A stretch of 64,000 nucleotides of DNA from a virus. The stretch covers positions 186,001 through 250,000 of IMG/VR virus record IMGVR_UViG_3300046616_000314; one strand, 5' to 3'. Made by a program: the position numbers and the translations under genes. Positions 6,740-23,169 of the stretch are shown here, piece after piece. The notes under the pieces are model-generated. The model made no database searches. It was given only the letters and a program-made list of their open reading frames with translations, and had not been told where the DNA came from. Position 1 is the first letter of the stretch, and every line of letters starts with the position of its first letter.

Positions 6740-6961
6740 CATCCCTCTCCCTCTCCACTAAATATAGTAAGAACGAATTTTAACCCGCCCGAAAGGCACG
6801 TATCGTCAATGTCGTAGATTGCTGGACATAAAAATTCACTGACACAACAAGACGCCCGTATTGCGACTCTGATCGCGATGGGTCGTTCTTCATATAATGC
6901 GTTCACCCGTCTGCGTTCATTCGCTGGCGGGATTTTTGCGTTCTATTCCAAGGAAAAAATA

Positions 6962-7294
6962 ATGACTACCCAACTTATCGCCGAAGAGGGCGATGAGGAT
7001 GATGACGACTGGGATTTGGACGAAGACGAATATCCCGACTTCCTCCACGAAAATGCCTGGGAAGATCATCCCGCTTATCTCAAGATTATCGCAGACATGC
7101 CCAAGGGCTGGAACATCGTAAAGGTGGTCAATTTCACCAATATGTCGATTAGCCAAATGGAAAATTGGCTCAAGACACGTTGTGAAGGAAAGTACAAGCA
7201 AGTCGGATTCAAGTCTGGTTGCTCGTACATGGTCGCGGTCGAATTCGAAATGATCGAAGACGCCGTTATGTTCAAAATGCGGTGGAAAAAATGA
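6962..7294 (+). CDS. DAxxFKLKW-family protein with acidic N-terminus (110 aa)
   Basis: Start MTTQLIAEEG has AAGGA 7 nt upstream. Residues ~8-30 are almost all Asp/Glu. The rest follows the family layout: helix with W (MENWLKTRC), beta strands, and the tail EDAVMFKMRWKK. Its stop overlaps the next start (ATGA at 7291-7294). Function unknown. Confidence 0.8.
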   Translation: MTTQLIAEEGDEDDDDWDLDEDEYPDFLHENAWEDHPAYLKIIADMPKGWNIVKVVNFTNMSISQMENWLKTRCEGKYKQVGFKSGCSYMVAVEFEMIEDAVMFKMRWKK

Positions 7295-8502: not shown

Positions 8503-8609
8503 GTCGGTGTAGCTCAATGGTAGAGCGTGAAATCAGTGGAGGGAACCGTGTACAGGTTCTTCGTTGAAGCTTGGTTTTGTGGCTATGGGTTCAAGTCCCA
8601 TCATCGACA
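8503..8609 (+). tRNA. Atypical tRNA-like gene with oversized central region
   Basis: Acceptor GTCGGTG/CATCGAC, D stem GCTC/GAGC and T arm ATGGG-TTCAAGT-CCCAT pair perfectly. The stretch between the D and T arms is 58 nt instead of about 22-35. It contains a long hairpin whose tip is AACC-GTGTACA-GGTT. No standard anticodon arm fits, and no CCA is encoded. It may be a decayed tRNA, an insert-bearing tRNA or a tRNA mimic. Anticodon not assigned. Confidence 0.55.
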
Positions 8610-9099: not shown

Positions 9100-9175
9100 G
9101 GTCCTATAGCTCAGCGGTAGAGCAGCTATGCCCTAACATAGCCGGTCCTCGGTTCAATCCCGAGTGGGATCACCA
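9100..9175 (+). tRNA. tRNA with 8-nt anticodon loop (anticodon ambiguous)
   Basis: Good cloverleaf: acceptor GGTCCTA/TGGGATC, D stem GCTC/GAGC, T arm CTCGG/CCGAG, discriminator A and encoded CCA. The anticodon stem GCTAT/ATAGC encloses an eight-base loop GCCCTAAC with C where U33 is expected. Depending on register the anticodon could be CCT (Arg) or CTA (amber). GTTTTGG before and CCAAAAC after could lengthen the acceptor helix. Confidence 0.75.
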
Positions 9176-12949: not shown

Positions 12950-13690
12950 TTACCGGGCGAGGATTTTCAGCATCATGGGGCGCGCGGATTGCTCAATGAA
13001 ACGAGCAAGACGTTTGTTCAGAGCCCGTGTGTTTCGCTCATTTAAATTATCTAAGAATTCATCACCGAACGAGGTTTGCTTAATTACCTTAATCAACTCT
13101 TGGACCGAAGCCTTTGAATATTTTTCCAGACGTTGCCGGGCTATATCGCTATCAAGGTGTTTCGCCAGGGCACTAATCAAGCTTCCAAAATCATGTACGC
13201 CTTCTTGATAGTAAGCGTTGGTTTCGTCGTTGTCGTTAAAATAACCAGCATGGTCGCCGCCATCATACTTTGAAATCGAGCTTTTCAGACGCGGTGCTCT
13301 CAGACTCATAAGATAATGTTGGAACTCGTGGACAAAATCTTTTTCCATGCCCGTTATTCGTGTTTCGATATATTTCAAGCTACTTGGTTCCAATAGAACC
13401 GCGAGCATGATAAGTTTGTTACCTTTACCAAGATAACCGAAGGCAGCGCGAGCTACATGATCGGTTTTACGCGGTGCTAACAGTAACCACAATTTAGGAT
13501 ATTCCAGTCCCATGGCGGTAAATTCAATTCCATAACTACCGCCGTGGAATTGGGATGGATGCATATAGTCTTCAAGGTTGTCTTTGTTCTGAGATATGAA
13601 ATGCTTGATCTGACTGAAAGCCATGGTGGCTTCAAGCCTAGCGGCTTTGTCGGAAGCTTCATCTTCGTTAATAATCTCTGAATAGCGCAT
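12950..13690 (-). CDS. Zincin metalloprotease-like protein with capsid-targeting-like N-terminus (246 aa)
   Basis: N-terminus MRYSEIINEDE fits the T4 capsid-targeting pattern with a predicted cut after INE. Residues ~128-132 read HEFQH, a canonical HExxH zinc site, in the context FVHEFQHYLMSL. About 30 residues on, ETNAYYQEG supplies candidate third ligands. There is no signal peptide. A TAAATA box sits 5 nt before the ATG and there is no Shine-Dalgarno. Inference: a protease packed in the head and possibly injected with DNA. Metal binding and packaging are untested. Confidence 0.85.
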   Translation of the reverse strand: MRYSEIINEDEASDKAARLEATMAFSQIKHFISQNKDNLEDYMHPSQFHGGSYGIEFTAMGLEYPKLWLLLAPRKTDHVARAAFGYLGKGNKLIMLAVLLEPSSLKYIETRITGMEKDFVHEFQHYLMSLRAPRLKSSISKYDGGDHAGYFNDNDETNAYYQEGVHDFGSLISALAKHLDSDIARQRLEKYSKASVQELIKVIKQTSFGDEFLDNLNERNTRALNKRLARFIEQSARPMMLKILAR

Positions 13691-13695
13691 TACTC

Positions 13696-13701
13696 TATTT
13701 A
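13696..13701 (-). promoter_or_regulatory. TAAATA late-type box abutting start codon
   Basis: ATAAATA then GAGTA then ATG of the zincin gene on the minus strand. Would give an almost leaderless late mRNA. Confidence 0.6.
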
Positions 13702-13742
13702 TGGATATCCACTACCTCTAGGATGCGTGACATCCTGACCTA

Positions 13743-13770
13743 TTGGCAAAGCTTGAGCACGTGTTACGAT
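13743..13770 (+). promoter_or_regulatory. sigma70-like promoter
   Basis: TTGGCA, 16-nt spacer, TACGAT, about 30 nt upstream of the small gene at 13801. Confidence 0.45.
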
Positions 13771-13800
13771 ACAGTCTCTTAGGGTGTCAGGGAAATAACG

Positions 13801-13989
13801 ATGTTCTTTTGTGATACGAGTTTTGTTAAGGCACAATACGAATTACTGAAATTAGACAGTGCTTCGGATATCATTGTTCGGAATTTTGAAGAAAGAATTG
13901 CGAATACTCCAAAGGGTACTGGGAATGTTCAATTCCTGTTGCATCACTTTGAAAACATTAAGGCAAACCTAAATATGGTATGCTGTTAA
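13801..13989 (+). CDS. Small hypothetical protein (62 aa)
   Basis: CAGGGA precedes the ATG and a promoter lies upstream. Helical, no known domain. Its 3' end overlaps the next gene's start by 10 nt and contains that gene's late-type box. Confidence 0.45.
   Translation: MFFCDTSFVKAQYELLKLDSASDIIVRNFEERIANTPKGTGNVQFLLHHFENIKANLNMVCC
13970..13975 (+). promoter_or_regulatory. TAAATA late-type box abutting start codon
   Basis: CTAAATA then TGGT then ATG of the 314-aa protein. It lies inside the preceding small gene. Confidence 0.55.
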
Positions 13990-14924
13990 CCGATCTCTTT
14001 GAAGCACCCCTAGCCGACATCAATATGCACGGCGACAATTGGGATGACACCGTTTCAAACGCAAAGCCTTTGCTCTCGGGTAAAGATGTCTATGACAACA
14101 TGACCCAGAATTCTTTCGTGTCTAAGGTAGATAGAGCGCACGCGCGCAATCCCGAAGTTCACGCAAAACTCTACAGCATGTTCGAAAAACATGGGGAGAA
14201 ATTTTATCTGTACTTGGTCAACAGTCCAGAAATGTCATTCTTCCATGACAATCTTGACTGGGGCATCCTGAACCCAACCAAGAATACTGTTGCCTTCTCT
14301 ATGTTCCCAAAAGAAATGCGCCAGCAAGTCATTTCTCGGAATAAAGAGAAAGCCATCCAAGTCATCTTGACGCACAACGAAGGCGGCAAGGAACGTCACC
14401 CGTTGACGCCCTGGACGATCATGCACCGCATAGTCCATGCGTTCTTCGGCGCAAATGCTGACATGGTATCGGCTCCGCGATCCTTGGTCGATCAAGAGGC
14501 TATGAGAACTTGCTTCAATAATTTCTTCGTTAAAGCCAAAGAAGGCTATGAAGGTTTGGGTTATACTGACACCCCCACACGTCACCATTATTTGACGGAC
14601 ATTTGTACGTTCAAATCCGCCAGAGATCGCAACATCCTAGTTACGAGTGGCGGAAACTATATGGAATTGTATGTGGAACTGATGACGCAATACCTATGGC
14701 ACGGTAAGATCATCTTCAAAGAGGCGCCGCCTAGAATTATTCAATTCAATCACGGCTTCCAATATAGCAGCAAGAAACGCCCCGAAGCCAGAGACGTTGA
14801 GACGATCTATAAACTGACGAACCCAGAGGTTATCAACGATTCGATTAGAATCTTGAAAGACAGCCTGGAAAAGTTGTTTGCCGACGCTATCAAGCAAGCT
14901 GAAGGTAAGATTATCGTCTGCTAA
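13980..14924 (+). CDS. Capsid-targeted candidate with HRxxH motif (314 aa)
   Basis: N-terminus MLLTDLFEAPLADI has a predicted prohead-protease site after LFE. The core contains LTPWTIMHRIVHAFFGA (HRxxH, with Arg in place of the catalytic Glu of zincins) and later VELMTQYLWHGKIIF. Both blocks recur in the protein at 39478-40671, so the two are paralogues. Possibly an inactive zincin relative or another metal fold. Late-type box 4 nt before the ATG, no Shine-Dalgarno. Confidence 0.8.
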   Translation: MLLTDLFEAPLADINMHGDNWDDTVSNAKPLLSGKDVYDNMTQNSFVSKVDRAHARNPEVHAKLYSMFEKHGEKFYLYLVNSPEMSFFHDNLDWGILNPTKNTVAFSMFPKEMRQQVISRNKEKAIQVILTHNEGGKERHPLTPWTIMHRIVHAFFGANADMVSAPRSLVDQEAMRTCFNNFFVKAKEGYEGLGYTDTPTRHHYLTDICTFKSARDRNILVTSGGNYMELYVELMTQYLWHGKIIFKEAPPRIIQFNHGFQYSSKKRPEARDVETIYKLTNPEVINDSIRILKDSLEKLFADAIKQAEGKIIVC

Positions 14925-14939
14925 CCCAAATTCTTTTGT

Positions 14940-15029
14940 TGGAGGAAGCGGTGGGATTCGAACCCACGGTAGACTCTCGCCTACGCTGGTTTTCAAGACC
15001 AGAACCTTAAACCACTCGGTCACGCTTCC
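14940..15029 (-). tRNA. tRNA-Ser (TGA)
   Basis: Acceptor GGAAGCG/CGCTTCC. Anticodon stem CTGGT/ACCAG with loop CTTGAAA gives TGA. Long type II variable arm, T loop TTCGAAT, discriminator U and encoded CCA. Confidence 0.9.
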
Positions 15030-15044
15030 AACTACAAAAAAATT

Positions 15045-15120
15045 TGGGGCGAGTGACGGGTTTCGAACCCGCGACCACCAGATTCACAATCCGGTGCTCT
15101 ACCACTGAGCTACACCCGCC
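15045..15120 (-). tRNA. tRNA-His (GTG)
   Basis: Anticodon stem CCGGA/TCTGG with loop TTGTGAA gives GTG. The acceptor is GCGGGTG/CACTCGC with an extra G at -1 opposite C73, the His identity pair, and CCA is encoded. It lies 12 nt from the HisRS-like gene. Confidence 0.93.
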
Positions 15121-15132
15121 ACCGATACTGGC

Positions 15133-15742
15133 TCAATTAAGAGCCAGCATAAGCCGATCCACACCAATTGCCCATCCGTTGCCTTCAGCGTACTTGCCGC
15201 CACCAGCGATTTGCTTTTGGGCTCCTAGTTTGGAGCATTCAACTTCGAACCCGTCAGCTACGTAATATGTGAGACCACGTTTGACAGTTTCATTAAATGT
15301 ACAATCTAGATCGAAAGATTGCAAGCACTTTCGAAGAATATCCACAACTTCTTGCTGATTTCCTTCGCCGAGCAATTCCAATCCGAATTGTGTAAACTCT
15401 CGATAACGACCAGCCTGGGGGCGTTCGTATCGATAGCAGCGAGATACGTAGAAAATACGCTTGGTCTTACAAGTCTTTGACCACGTATCTCGCCACAGTT
15501 CTTGAACTAAACCTGTTACTTCAGGAATTAGACAAACGGGACGATCACCTTTATCGTTGAAAGCCCACATTTGGTTGATGATTTCAGGTCCAGCTTTGTC
15601 AATAAACGTTTGCTGTTCCCAAATAGCCGGAAGAATTACTTCCTCATAGCCAGCTTCAATGAACTGACCCCCGAAGCTTTTCGATGACTTGGGTATACAG
15701 CCGGGCTTCGTCGCCCATCAAAACTCTAGTTCCGCGTAACAT
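15133..15742 (-). CDS. Histidyl-tRNA synthetase-like catalytic domain, +1 frameshift
   Basis: Reading from ATG 15742 (MLRGTRVLMGDEARLY) the frame stops after about 28 codons. A +1 shift at a run of five C on the plus strand (15668-15672; CGG GGG T on the message) restores it: the protein continues FIEAGYEEVILPAIWEQ (motif 1 with its Pro), CYRYERPQAGRYREF (motif 2), GLTYYVADGFE (HisA) and GGGKY followed by AIGVDRL (motif 3). Total ~203 aa, lacking the anticodon-binding domain of HisRS. Either programmed frameshifting, a sequencing slip, or a recent mutation. Adjacent to tRNA-His. Confidence 0.8.
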
Positions 15743-15752
15743 ATTATGTTCC

Positions 15753-15920
15753 TTATAGTTTTGCCAGTTGAGCCTTTAGGTCTGCAATTTGGCGCATGGT
15801 TTGGGGAACGTTGATTTCGGCGGTTGCCGAATCTTTCTTTCCCAGAGAGGTTTTGAGAAAATTTTCCAGAGTGTCGATGCGCTCTTGAATCTTTGCTCGT
15901 TTCTTGTCCGTCTTGCTCAT
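15753..15920 (-). CDS. Small coiled-coil protein (55 aa)
   Basis: ATG at 15920 overlaps the TGA of the upstream gene (ATGA). Encodes MSKTDKKRAKIQERIDTLEN and a Leu-rich C-terminus (MRQIADLKAQLAKL). Heptad-like spacing suggests a coiled coil. It precedes the HisRS-like gene by 10 nt and is probably co-transcribed. Confidence 0.65.
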   Translation of the reverse strand: MSKTDKKRAKIQERIDTLENFLKTSLGKKDSATAEINVPQTMRQIADLKAQLAKL

Positions 15921-16147
15921 ACGTCGGTCGCCTTACGATGGCTCACATGGTCACGAGCACGATCTTGGATGACTTCAGAATCCATTTCAGCCTGGAATAC
16001 ATTGGTCACTTTCCAGCCACGGACCCATTCACCATTAGACTTCAGATCGATGACCCGATTGTCGGTGGCAAATTCAGTCGGAATCCAAGTGACTTGGATG
16101 GCGCCTTCGCGCTCAAGACGGCATTGTTTGTGAGTATTCTTTTTCAT
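15917..16147 (-). CDS. Conserved small phage protein (76 aa)
   Basis: Contains CRLEREGAIQVTWIPTEFA and GEWVRGWKVTNVF, a pattern (basic strand, TWIP, then V-x-x-W-x-V) that I associate with uncharacterised small phage proteins. AGAAAGAGA-type ribosome site. Downstream of tRNA-Cys in the same direction. Confidence 0.75.
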   Translation of the reverse strand: MKKNTHKQCRLEREGAIQVTWIPTEFATDNRVIDLKSNGEWVRGWKVTNVFQAEMDSEVIQDRARDHVSHRKATDV

Positions 16148-16176
16148 AATATTCTCTCTTTCTTTAGTTCAAAATT

Positions 16177-16262
16177 TGGAGGCGACGGTGGGACTCGCAC
16201 CCACGAAGGAATAATCCACGGGATTTGCAGTCCCGCCCCTTTGCTACTCGGGACACGTCGCC
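16177..16262 (-). tRNA. tRNA-Cys (GCA) with enlarged variable arm
   Basis: Acceptor GGCGACG/CGTCGCC. Anticodon stem CGGGA/TCCCG with loop CTGCAAA gives GCA. T arm GTGGG/CCCAC, U73, encoded CCA. The variable region is 14 nt with a possible GGA/TCC stem, a type II shape not expected for tRNA-Cys. Confidence 0.85.
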
Positions 16263-16274
16263 CTATGTTTTTTC

Positions 16275-16358
16275 TGGTGGGAGCGGAAGGAATTTGCACC
16301 CTCACAGCCGAAACGGGAGATTTACAGTCTCTTGGGCTCACTCATGCCCAGCACTCCC
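16275..16358 (-). tRNA. tRNA-Tyr (GTA)
   Basis: Acceptor GGGAGTG/CGCTCCC. Anticodon loop CTGTAAA gives GTA on a short GAGA/TCTC stem. Long variable arm as usual for bacterial tRNA-Tyr, A73 and encoded CCA. Flanked by CTATGTTTTTTCT and AGAAAAAACATAG, a 13-bp leader-trailer match. Confidence 0.85.
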
Positions 16359-16382
16359 ACAAGAAAAAACATAGAACTACCA

Positions 16383-16492
16383 AGTGCTGAATGGGATTCG
16401 AGCCCATGGTTCCCAACTCTAATAACGCCCTACCGCAGGCTTGTTAGGAATCTAGCGGTGTCAACCTTAGACCAACTCAGTCATCAGGCACT
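16383..16492 (-). tRNA. Atypical tRNA-like gene, anticodon unassigned
   Basis: Acceptor strands AGTGC(C)TGA/TCAGCACT pair with one bulged C. T arm ATGGG-CTCGAAT-CCCAT is normal and the D region reads TGACTGAGTTGGTCTAAGG. The central part is oversized: ACCGC/GCGGT closes an 18-nt loop, or alternatively GCTAG/CAAGC closes an 8-nt loop ATTCCTAA. The acceptor helix continues outward as TACCAAGTGC/GCACTTGGTA. No CCA encoded. Confidence 0.6.
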
Positions 16493-16501
16493 TGGTAATC
16501 T

Positions 16502-16592
16502 TGGCGGAAACGGAGAGATTCGAACTCTCGGAGGGCTATCCACCCTCGACGCTTTAGCAAAGCGTTGGTTTAAACCACTCACCCACGTTTCC
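16502..16592 (-). tRNA. tRNA-Ser (GCT)
   Basis: Acceptor GGAAACG/CGTTTCC. Anticodon stem ACGCT/AGCGT with loop TTGCTAA gives GCT. Long variable arm, T loop TTCGAAT, G73 and encoded CCA. Confidence 0.92.
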
Positions 16593-16611
16593 AAACCATG
16601 GTGTAATAGTT

Positions 16612-16703
16612 TGGCGGACAGGGAGGGATTCGAACCCTCGGAACCTTTTAACGGGTTCGCCACCTTTCCAAGATGGTGTGTTCGACCACTCCACCACCTG
16701 TCC
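16612..16703 (-). tRNA. tRNA-Ser (GGA)
   Basis: Acceptor GGACAGG/CCTGTCC. Anticodon stem CCATC/GGTGG with loop TTGGAAA gives GGA. Long variable arm, G73, encoded CCA. TAATAGTTT and AAACTATTA flank it as a 9-bp leader-trailer match. Confidence 0.9.
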
Positions 16704-16728
16704 ATTAAACTATTACGAAACTACTTTG

Positions 16729-16815
16729 AGGATGCGATAGGATTCGAACCTATGGTGGACTCTCACCCACTCCCGCTTTCGAGGCAGGCGCTTTAAACCG
16801 CTCAGCCACGCATCC
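16729..16815 (-). tRNA. tRNA-Ser (CGA)
   Basis: Acceptor GGATGCG/CGCATCC. Anticodon stem CCTGC/GCGGG with loop CTCGAAA gives CGA. Long variable arm; no CCA encoded. The acceptor helix extends without a mismatch into a 20-bp inverted repeat, GAAACTACTTTGAGGATGCG against its complement. Confidence 0.9.
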
Positions 16816-17702: not shown

Positions 17703-17939
17703 TCAAAAGCCGAGTGTGGTAGCCGCGTTTCTCTGTCCACAACAGCATGGTTTGTATCCTAGGAATTTTTCACACCAAGCTTCAAGCTTGTTGCCGTGTT
17801 TCCAATCGTAACGCTCCCGGTAGCCAGCTTTATTCCACATTCCACCTTGGGCGGACATGAAAATCTGAATTTTGTGAGCCTTGAGCTTTTCCTTGGGAAG
17901 CGGAATAACCACCAAACGTGGTAAATATTTTATAAACAT
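17703..17939 (-). CDS. Hypothetical protein with CCC motif (78 aa)
   Basis: Overlaps the upstream gene by 10 nt. Contains YKPCCCGQRN near the C-terminus, a possible metal site, and a Trp-containing helix (KLEAWCEKFLG). Unrecognised. Confidence 0.6.
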   Translation of the reverse strand: MFIKYLPRLVVIPLPKEKLKAHKIQIFMSAQGGMWNKAGYRERYDWKHGNKLEAWCEKFLGYKPCCCGQRNAATTLGF

Positions 17940-18202
17940 TTCAACTTGAATAAAGCAAGAGCTTCGATATCTGGGAAAATCAACGTGTACGAAAAATGCT
18001 TCGACTTGGCTGACCGCCGAACTTCGGGATAGTGTTCAACCAGCCAGGAATCGATTTGGGGCTGAAGAAACAACCAATCAAAATCACCATCGTCGTAGGC
18101 GTACTTACCTTCGAACAATACGATTGTAAGGGCTTCCTCATAGATTACATATTGAAGATCATCCGAACGAGGAAGGTCAGGAAAGTCTATTGGAGCGTGC
18201 AT
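17930..18202 (-). CDS. DAxxFKLK-family protein (90 aa)
   Basis: Layout as in the family: QIDSWLVEHYPEV helix, beta strand SYTLIFPD, tail IEALALFKLKCL. Overlaps both neighbours. Function unknown. Confidence 0.75.
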   Translation of the reverse strand: MHAPIDFPDLPRSDDLQYVIYEEALTIVLFEGKYAYDDGDFDWLFLQPQIDSWLVEHYPEVRRSAKSKHFSYTLIFPDIEALALFKLKCL

Positions 18203-18432
18203 TCCCGAGTTTCCATGAGCATCACTTGCCCGGCTGCATCGCGACGCATCAGCACCAAATTGCCTTCAACCACGTGTTCAACGTGATTATCAAAGCGAAC
18301 TAGGTCGGCTTCTTCTTGATCCCACAGATACCATGCGGAATGGTCCATCGCGAGATTCGGATAGTTCTCGGAGAATTTACCACCAAGGGAAATGTCCAAC
18401 GCGAAATCCTTTACGAAAATTCTATGATCCAA
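18187..18432 (-). CDS. Hypothetical protein (81 aa)
   Basis: First gene of the leftward five-gene operon ending at 17163. Mixed alpha/beta, acidic. Overlaps the next gene by 16 nt. No domain recognised. Confidence 0.65.
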   Translation of the reverse strand: MDHRIFVKDFALDISLGGKFSENYPNLAMDHSAWYLWDQEEADLVRFDNHVEHVVEGNLVLMRRDAAGQVMLMETRECTLQ

Positions 18433-18449
18433 ATCTAGTAGGTTATTTT

Positions 18450-19315
18450 TTTAATTGCAAGGGAATTCGTATCAGGGGGCTTATCGCCCTCCTGTCCATA
18501 GGTCTCTCACTCGCTATCGCTCATTCCTAAGACCTATGGGTTTCCTTTTCCCTTTCCATTGAATCCTTATGAGTCTGTCTGAGTGAATCCTTATACGAAT
18601 CCTACTAGAGGAATCATTAACTGAATCATAAGGGGGAATTTATTATTACATCCTAGACCTTGTACTCTTTCTCCCCCCTCATAATAACATATTAAAAATA
18701 TAATACGCCATCAGAAGGGAGAGAGTTAAAGTTATGGTCAATATCCTGAGCCATTAGCCTTCGCGTTAGCTTCTACGTATTATTACAATACGAACCGGCG
18801 GTTGCCCTGTACCGGTAATTAAAGCCCACTCTCAATTCCACAGCCTATGTCGCGGGCGTAGGGGATAGTCGCCAATGTAGGTAAAACCCATTGGATTGGT
18901 CGGTCCTTGTCGCCTAGTTGTGTTAAAGAATTCAACGGTTATGAATGGTTAATTCAAGTTCATACATCCGGCAAGTCGCAGAACCGGTGTATGCAGACAG
19001 TCATCAAATTGTTACAAGATGTATCTGTCTTCGTTTTTCGTAGCCTTTCGCTGCATAAATGCAGCATAGGAGCCGTTACTTCCCTTACCACCTGTGCGCC
19101 TTTCGGTTATGCACCTGCCTTCATGGGTCAGTTACAAGGTGGGGAATGTCCGCCTATTTGACTACTCTGTCCCTGTTCCCGTCTACGCCCCCTTGCGGGT
19201 AAGCTACTTGTCCGAGACTTTTCCAGTTTTGCGAGGGGGTGAGCCCGCTATAACCCCTGAGTAACTATAATTAATTCGAGTCCTGTTATAGAATCGAGTC
19301 GGGTACTCTGTCCAT
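18450..19315 (-). ncRNA. Candidate large structured non-coding RNA (~870 nt)
   Basis: No convincing ORF on either strand, in an otherwise gene-dense genome. Many hairpins: 18496-18505 with 18530-18539 (10 bp), 18961-18993 (CATACA-CCGG stem), 19051-19064, 19094-19114, and a closing pair 19089-19096/19135-19143. Four loops read as GNRA tetraloops (GAAA or GCAA) and all do so on the minus strand (near 18802, 19046, 19101, 19193), indicating the transcribed strand. Giant phage RNAs of the GOLLD and ROOL classes also sit next to tRNA islands; whether this is one of them or a new class is untested. Ends are approximate. Confidence 0.55.
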
Positions 19316-19323
19316 AATAATCG

Positions 19324-19352
19324 TTGACAAGAACTGAAATAAATTATATACA
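19324..19352 (+). promoter_or_regulatory. Strong sigma70-like promoter
   Basis: TTGACA, exactly 17 nt, TATACA, placing the start of transcription near 19359, ahead of the HAD gene at 19380. Confidence 0.75.
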
Positions 19353-19379
19353 GACGTGTTCAGTAAAAGGTTTTCCCAA

Positions 19380-19895
19380 ATGTCCCAGTTTAAAGCAATT
19401 CTTGACGAGCATGATTCCATCGCGTGGGACATCGATGGAACTTTGCTGTATGTTGATGACAATATGAAAATTCGTGAAGCAGCGCATTCGGCGTACTTCC
19501 GACAGTATATTATCGACAATCCGCAAAAGAAACATTACATCGTGACCTTCCGTGACCCAGCTTGGGCGGGACGTGTATTTACCGAATTGGAGTCACTGGG
19601 TATGGAAGATGCCCGAAGCCATTTCGAAGACGTTCATGCGTGTCCGGTAGAGCTTCATGACGCATGGCAATTGCGTAGTGCCAGCCCTGCGACCGTTACT
19701 CACTATGGATTCACTCACGCCGAAGTCGCGCACGCTGTTTCGAATTTTCCGCTCTGGAAGGGTATGGCGTCCAACGCGCTAGGTGCAACCATCTTGGTTG
19801 ACGACATGCCCACATGGGTCGAACAAGGCTGCGCAAAACACAATGTGGATTTGCTGGACATTACCGGTATGCGTCACCTGAAGGGTTCACGCTAG
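19380..19895 (+). CDS. HAD-superfamily phosphatase (171 aa)
   Basis: Motif I DIDGTLL at residues ~20-26, later TFRD and ILVDDMP, the HAD nucleophile and acidic motifs. ATG at 19380 (MSQFKA) is chosen because the upstream in-frame ATG (19356) would fall at the transcription start. Distinct from the nucleotidase at 12436. Substrate unknown. Confidence 0.8.
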   Translation: MSQFKAILDEHDSIAWDIDGTLLYVDDNMKIREAAHSAYFRQYIIDNPQKKHYIVTFRDPAWAGRVFTELESLGMEDARSHFEDVHACPVELHDAWQLRSASPATVTHYGFTHAEVAHAVSNFPLWKGMASNALGATILVDDMPTWVEQGCAKHNVDLLDITGMRHLKGSR

Positions 19896-22965: not shown

Positions 22966-23169
22966 CTAAAGCCAGCGTAGTTTGAATTCTACGCTGGCTT
23001 CGTCTGTATAAAAATAAATGGTATCGTAGTAACTGGCTGTATTTTGGTCGAAACCTTTCATAGCAATCCAGTCACCTTCGATAAGCCGTTTCTTACACCA
23101 TACCACCAAGTCACTATCTTCATTGCGATCCCGATGGGCAGTGATATAGAATTTGATGTCTTGGCTCAT
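22966..23169 (-). CDS. DAxxFKLKW-family protein (67 aa)
   Basis: Close to the minimal domain: SDLVVWCKKRLIEGDW helix, strands, tail TDEASVEFKLRWL. The start touches the stop of the topoisomerase subunit, so it is translated with it. Function unknown. Confidence 0.8.
   Translation of the reverse strand: MSQDIKFYITAHRDRNEDSDLVVWCKKRLIEGDWIAMKGFDQNTASYYDTIYFYTDEASVEFKLRWL

Follow-up and report, generated by a model that had tools for sequence, protein, structure and literature searches.

A family of large structured RNAs, absent from Rfam, in jumbo phages and near recombinase genes of alphaproteobacterial chromosomes

The window, that is, the whole stretch of 64 kb that we analysed (bases 186001-250000 of the 561,116-b virus record G000), encodes on its minus strand a large structured RNA that has no conserved reading frame and whose family is absent from Rfam; that the locus belongs to a structured RNA family is beyond reasonable doubt. 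The carriers are jumbo phages related to those of Alphaproteobacteria, with two to four diverged copies in the larger records, and members of the family also lie near recombinase genes on alphaproteobacterial chromosomes. In total, there are 12 distinct phage copies (the window and 11 others) and about 15 alphaproteobacterial chromosomal copies. The RNA and its parts, from 5' to 3', are the following:

18473..19278, minus strand: the predicted RNA, about 800 nt, from homologues, covariation and folding
19285..19314, minus strand: putative promoter box TGGACA-N18-TATAAC, immediately 5' of the RNA, with a counterpart at the 5' end of the tested phage copies
19236..19257, minus strand: 5' motif GGGGTTATAGCGGGCTCACCCC with a GGGG/CCCC stem, nearly identical in L002
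19091..19122, minus strand: hairpin with a GAAA tetraloop, common to L008, present in the MFE structure with a closing pair of P = 0.82
18995..19030, minus strand: hairpin A (6 bp, a 3-nt bulge, 4 bp), with compensatory changes at 7 of 10 pairs in nine phage copies and at 9 of 10 with the bacterial copies
18961..18994, minus strand: hairpin B, with compensatory changes at all six of its outer pairs (6/6)
18934..18957, minus strand: small hairpin C and a near-invariant, apparently unpaired AACCGTT (AACCGT in 9 of 9 aligned phage copies)
18767..18829, minus strand: helix P, enclosing a bulged GNRA hairpin (18816-18794) and a variable hairpin (18792-18776), with compensatory changes at 4 of 6 pairs of helix P and 3 of 5 pairs of the GNRA-hairpin stem
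18740..18750, minus strand: twin segment 1, CTCAGGATATT, recognised by the identity of the twins within the same RNA
18665..18730, minus strand: long hairpin D (a C-rich strand and a GGGGGGAG strand) between the twin segments, local fold -31.6 kcal/mol, with such a C-rich/G-rich hairpin present in the copies read
18646..18657, minus strand: twin segment 2, TCTAGGATGTAA, recognised in the same way
18496..18540, minus strand: 3' hairpin with a GAGCGAYAGCGAGTGAG loop strand, a motif common to L002 and partly to L008
18473..18494, minus strand: terminal hairpin CAGGAGGGCGATAAGCCCCCTG, without a U tract

The RNA lies between an 81-aa ORF (18187-18432, minus strand) and a HAD-type gene (19380-19895, plus strand), and the gap from this ORF to the start of the HAD-type gene contains no credible gene, as a preliminary description of this DNA had said. 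That description also placed the RNA beside a tRNA island. The island (14940-16815) is 1.7 kb off, but tRNA genes are close to only one other copy, L002; none were seen at the other loci scanned, and there is none within the 19 kb around the second copy in G000. Apart from this minus-strand island, the window has two plus-strand tRNA-like genes (8503-8609 and 9100-9175), one of them without a clear amino acid in ARAGORN and the other reported by Rfam and not by ARAGORN. We also observed an FKLRW/FKMRW-like C-terminal motif on many small phage proteins (window 6878-7294, 17930-18202, 22966-23169 and others, and also in L002), which look as if they formed one paralogous family with a conserved C-terminus.

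To judge from its sequence, the locus has its own sigma-70-like promoter box. The preliminary description had found no clear promoter, thus missing a conserved TTGAC-N18-TATAAT-like box at 19314-19285. In the tested phage copies, all of which have such a box of their own, the consensus is TTGAC, N18 and a TATAAT-like hexamer, mostly with GATTC ahead of this second hexamer, and the box at 19314-19285 is the top match to it across the 64 kb of the window, with 1 mismatch. In the bacterial copies the box is variable or absent. A generic promoter scan did not report 19314-19285 at its own cut-off, and therefore the promoter claim rests on conservation. Regarding the other end, we found no U-rich terminator at the locus, as had been described; a strong terminal hairpin without a U tract closes the RNA and a strong terminal hairpin is also seen in the phage copies read. 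Since this hairpin lacks a U tract, the 3' end was inferred from it as the last hairpin, and the 5' end from the promoter box.

Regarding the homologues in phages, BLASTN against phage records, which had been proposed as a check, gave nothing for the region. BLAST matches to a Streptococcus satellite, an E. coli jumbo phage and an ssRNA phage were of 24-28 nt (E 0.3-3) and were taken as chance. The topoisomerase II of G000 is closest to those of the jumbo phages Sinorhizobium phage Phosso and Agrobacterium phage Atu_ph07, and three large IMG/VR contigs are also among its closest relatives. Five relatives were collected via topoisomerase II, and the adjacent HAD protein led to no contigs. The first homologue came from a relative of 415 kb as a weak BLAST match (E 0.03), beside a HAD gene and about 6 kb from topoisomerase II; it sits where synteny predicts, and reading the gap gave colinear motifs. 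A similar RNA was read in a second relative, and further copies came from pattern scans. Seven of the 11 pattern matches in genome contigs had no significant model match, and the matches in L011, L037 and L082, which either had no model match or were protein-coding, were taken as chance. No copy of the RNA was found in Phosso and Atu_ph07; a weak Phosso match reads as protein-coding and the remaining matches in these two phages are not significant.

The covariance model R1, which covers one core, found two copies per phage in three viruses, and the model R2 found four copies in a 499-kb virus. By record, G000, G001 and G002 have two copies each and G003 has four, diverged within a genome. The second, diverged copy in G000 lies at C1:475268-475572 (L072:9269-9573). 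The records G002/G766 and G005/G764 are paired across two samples, and they may therefore belong to a single phage type that has three copies and is split into pieces.

The preliminary description had proposed that the minus strand encodes a giant structured RNA, and this idea is supported by compensatory changes in distant homologues, by two models that match together and by the conserved promoter box. It had also named a conserved protein frame and a lack of covariation as signs against such an RNA; no frame is conserved in the homologues and the covariation is clear. Compared with shuffles, the minus strand folds at -275 kcal/mol with z = -5.1, and the plus strand reaches z = -3.1. The sense strand beats all its shuffles in 27 of 27 homologues, with a mean z of -5.4 versus -2.8 for the antisense strand, and it folds better than the antisense strand in 26 of the 27 copies. 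No conserved reading frame was found by tblastn among 26 homologues, where the best matches were of 13-23 residues (E about 1e-4 to 1e-3), each in one relative only.

In the alignment A7 of the phage copies, 98.6% of the cells are paired, against 28-51% in the slid control, and 13 of 16 pairs in hairpins A and B show double changes; in the alignment A6, 92% are paired and 7 of 14 pairs show double changes. With the bacterial copies added and the alignments fitted to covariance models (A8 and A9), 15 of 16 and 7 of 14 pairs show double changes. The slid controls are far below the observed pairing in both domains. Furthermore, the model R3, built from phage copies only, covers the domain of hairpins A and B, which is separate from that of R2 (helix P with the bulged GNRA hairpin), and it also has a match in each of the bacterial copies of R2, upstream and on the same strand, at a spacing of 113-256 nt; R2 thus matches downstream of R3 with similar spacing across the copies. 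Most of the bacterial loci of R2 were found without use of the R3 domain and therefore the R3 matches are an independent confirmation. R3 scores 88 bits for the window copy, which was among its training sequences, and 22-85 bits for the held-out bacterial copies, the weakest match being the second copy of Microvirga VF16 (E 0.02). The fold support in the two domains amounts to about 30 pairs only, and the 5' third of the RNA is poorly conserved.

Two of the four GNRA loops originally claimed are well supported in the predicted fold, GAAA at 19104-19101 and GCAA at 18805-18802, but the other two are not; only the GCAA loop at 18805-18802 is conserved, with a GNRA loop at this place in most copies. 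AACCGTT could pair in a pseudoknot with an ACGG motif further upstream; this pairing was read in several copies and was absent from others, and we dropped it. Being large and structured and having a conserved GNRA loop, the RNA could also be a self-splicing intron, another ribozyme or the 5' leader of a neighbouring gene. However, Rfam gave no match to group I and II introns, nor to OLE and HEARO, at the gathering thresholds and at E <= 10; moreover, the RNA and the neighbouring HAD gene lie on opposite strands, and the flanking genes differ from copy to copy. We consider this explanation highly improbable.

Among bacteria, a scan of a genome collection scored with R1 found copies in Microvirga sp. 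VF16, M. lupini, A. brasilense and Azospirillum sp. TSH64. Family surveys found copies in 4 of 82 and 9 of 298 genomes, and a class sample in 1 of 385, which was the query genome itself. BLAST of the bacterial copies against plasmids and phages gave nothing. A tyrosine integrase or a serine resolvase lies within a few kb at about 10 of the 12 loci read, and several of these genes directly adjoin the RNA. This neighbourhood, together with the multiple copies per genome, would fit an RNA that is part of a mobile or recombination module, serving the excision, maintenance or copy control of integrase/resolvase elements, and that was acquired by the phages. Nevertheless, we recognised no recombinase gene next to the copies in the window and L002, the two in phages for which the neighbours were read, the type of recombinase varies, and the copies within a genome have diverged and therefore do not come from recent transposition, so that we find this origin quite unlikely. 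In one bacterial genome (L073:5759-8463 and 13357-16061) the RNA, a serine resolvase and their neighbours occur twice as an inverted pair, about 8 kb apart and with identical model scores, which may be element ends or an assembly effect.

PADLOC reported defence genes near three bacterial copies among the same 12 loci: BrxC (BREX) beside the Azospirillum TSH64 copy, HamA and HamB (Hachiman) plus PDC-S71 around the A. brasilense copy, and the PADLOC candidate PDC-M68 beside a Microvirga copy. The other proteins chosen had no PADLOC match. We take the link of the RNA to defence genes as a lead only.

An unusual evolutionary signature of the RNA is a pair of twin segments of 9 nt that keep their identity to each other, found as CTCA-N9 and TCTA-N9 on the two sides of hairpin D. 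In the 19 copies where both anchors were found, 131 of 171 positions are identical between the twins of the same RNA, versus 73 +/- 7 expected, and 0 of 20,000 permutations reached this value; the permutation keeps the relatedness among copies, which lifts both the null and the observed value. Thus, the twins are alike within each RNA and differ between RNAs. Their sequences also differ between the copies in G000, G002 and G003 and are the same in both copies of G001, which suggests that the paralogues have separate partners. There is no conserved complement or intramolecular partner of the twins inside the RNA (best z 2.3 in 150 tests), and hardly any further copies of the twin sequences nearby, not beyond chance. 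We also considered the twins as CsrA sites, and this was rejected because the GGA is lost in several copies.

These observations point to an external partner shared by both twins, and they would be expected if the RNA were a guide or antisense RNA in which two similar seeds flank hairpin D, and whose partner acts in trans and differs between copies; the paralogues of one genome mostly carry different twins, as this would predict. However, no target was identified, the seeds, of about 8-10 nt, are short, the twins are only weak in a few copies (g212, g160), and the same pattern would arise if the partner were a sequence-specific protein or if slippage led to concerted evolution. We therefore regard a guide function as possible, though rather unlikely.

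Our best explanation overall, to which we give about an even chance, is a stable trans-acting structural RNA, probably a particle. The host polymerase would transcribe the RNA from the promoter box in the phage, and the transcript would accumulate as a stable RNA that acts as RNA itself, and not as an mRNA or leader. It would form a GOLLD/ROOL-like structural scaffold or particle (an RNA-only oligomer or an RNP) and serve its element in phage-host or element-element conflict. That the RNA acts in trans as a stable RNA is quite probable; the scaffold or particle mode is plausible at somewhat lower confidence than the explanation as a whole. A pure scaffold model would not predict the twin segments, which argue for a specific external partner; this is a reservation on the particle reading. 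A bolder and unlikely possibility is that the RNA is a reprogrammable machine, in which a matched pair of recognition segments surrounds a fixed hairpin and each copy in one phage has a different pair. The same machine would then be used with changed specificities by phages and by integrative elements, some with defence cargo, as a new RNA-guided or RNA-scaffolded system in phage-host conflict.

To our knowledge, very few classes of giant structured RNAs of phages are known, and none with a known function. The RNA described here is outside Rfam, comes as several paralogues in a genome and, in one virus, is accompanied by a GOLLD-like RNA. It is also present in bacteria that can be cultured (Azospirillum, Microvirga); there, deletion and assays of the RNA are feasible, and therefore the role of giant phage RNAs becomes directly testable. 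As far as we found, the family has not been described in the literature, subscription journals and preprints being mostly outside our coverage.

Regarding the known giant RNAs, Rfam gave nothing significant at the locus, and at E up to 10 there were five chance-level matches to eukaryotic families; the homologues had no family match either. The comparison with GOLLD and ROOL made at the outset holds as a likeness of kind, but not as membership of an Rfam family, and the check with the GOLLD, ROOL, HEARO and OLE covariance models gave no match in the locus at E <= 10. In particular, the GOLLD model (RF02032) has no match in 18380-19400 at E <= 10, whereas it finds a GOLLD-like RNA elsewhere in the same virus, at G000:C1:251967-252447 (L094:1967-2447), about 2 kb past the right end of the window, with 98 bits and E 3.6e-27, which is below the curated 150 bits of Rfam. 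It also matches G766:86890-87287 (117 bits) and, weakly, G003:55034-55420. The model detects this separate locus in G000 and not the RNA at 18473-19278; therefore our RNA is not GOLLD. On the other hand, G000 carries a GOLLD-like RNA too and therefore this phage group uses giant RNAs. The size, the phage setting and the tRNA genes nearby in two genomes could still suggest a divergent GOLLD or ROOL, but R3 has no match to the GOLLD-like loci, that of G000 included, and the ROOL model (RF03087) has no match, in a search in which no positive control scored. Together with the GOLLD result, this makes such a relationship hardly credible.

GOLLD and ROOL form RNA-only cages whose function is unknown (PMC12286853). 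Our RNA resembles GOLLD in being phage-borne, about 800 nt long, elaborately folded and sometimes beside tRNA genes, but it has no sequence or structure match with it, is multi-copy per genome and also occurs near alphaproteobacterial recombinase genes. It shares with ROOL the phage or prophage setting, often near tRNA islands, and a large multi-helix fold, although the ROOL model gave no match with it. A further comparison is the lytic phage ICP1 and the integrated satellite PLE, both of which make abundant non-coding RNAs (PMC7567579). By description, the likeness is that a phage and an integrated element each have a non-coding RNA; however, those transcripts are not described as mutually homologous, whereas the phage and chromosomal copies of our RNA are one family.
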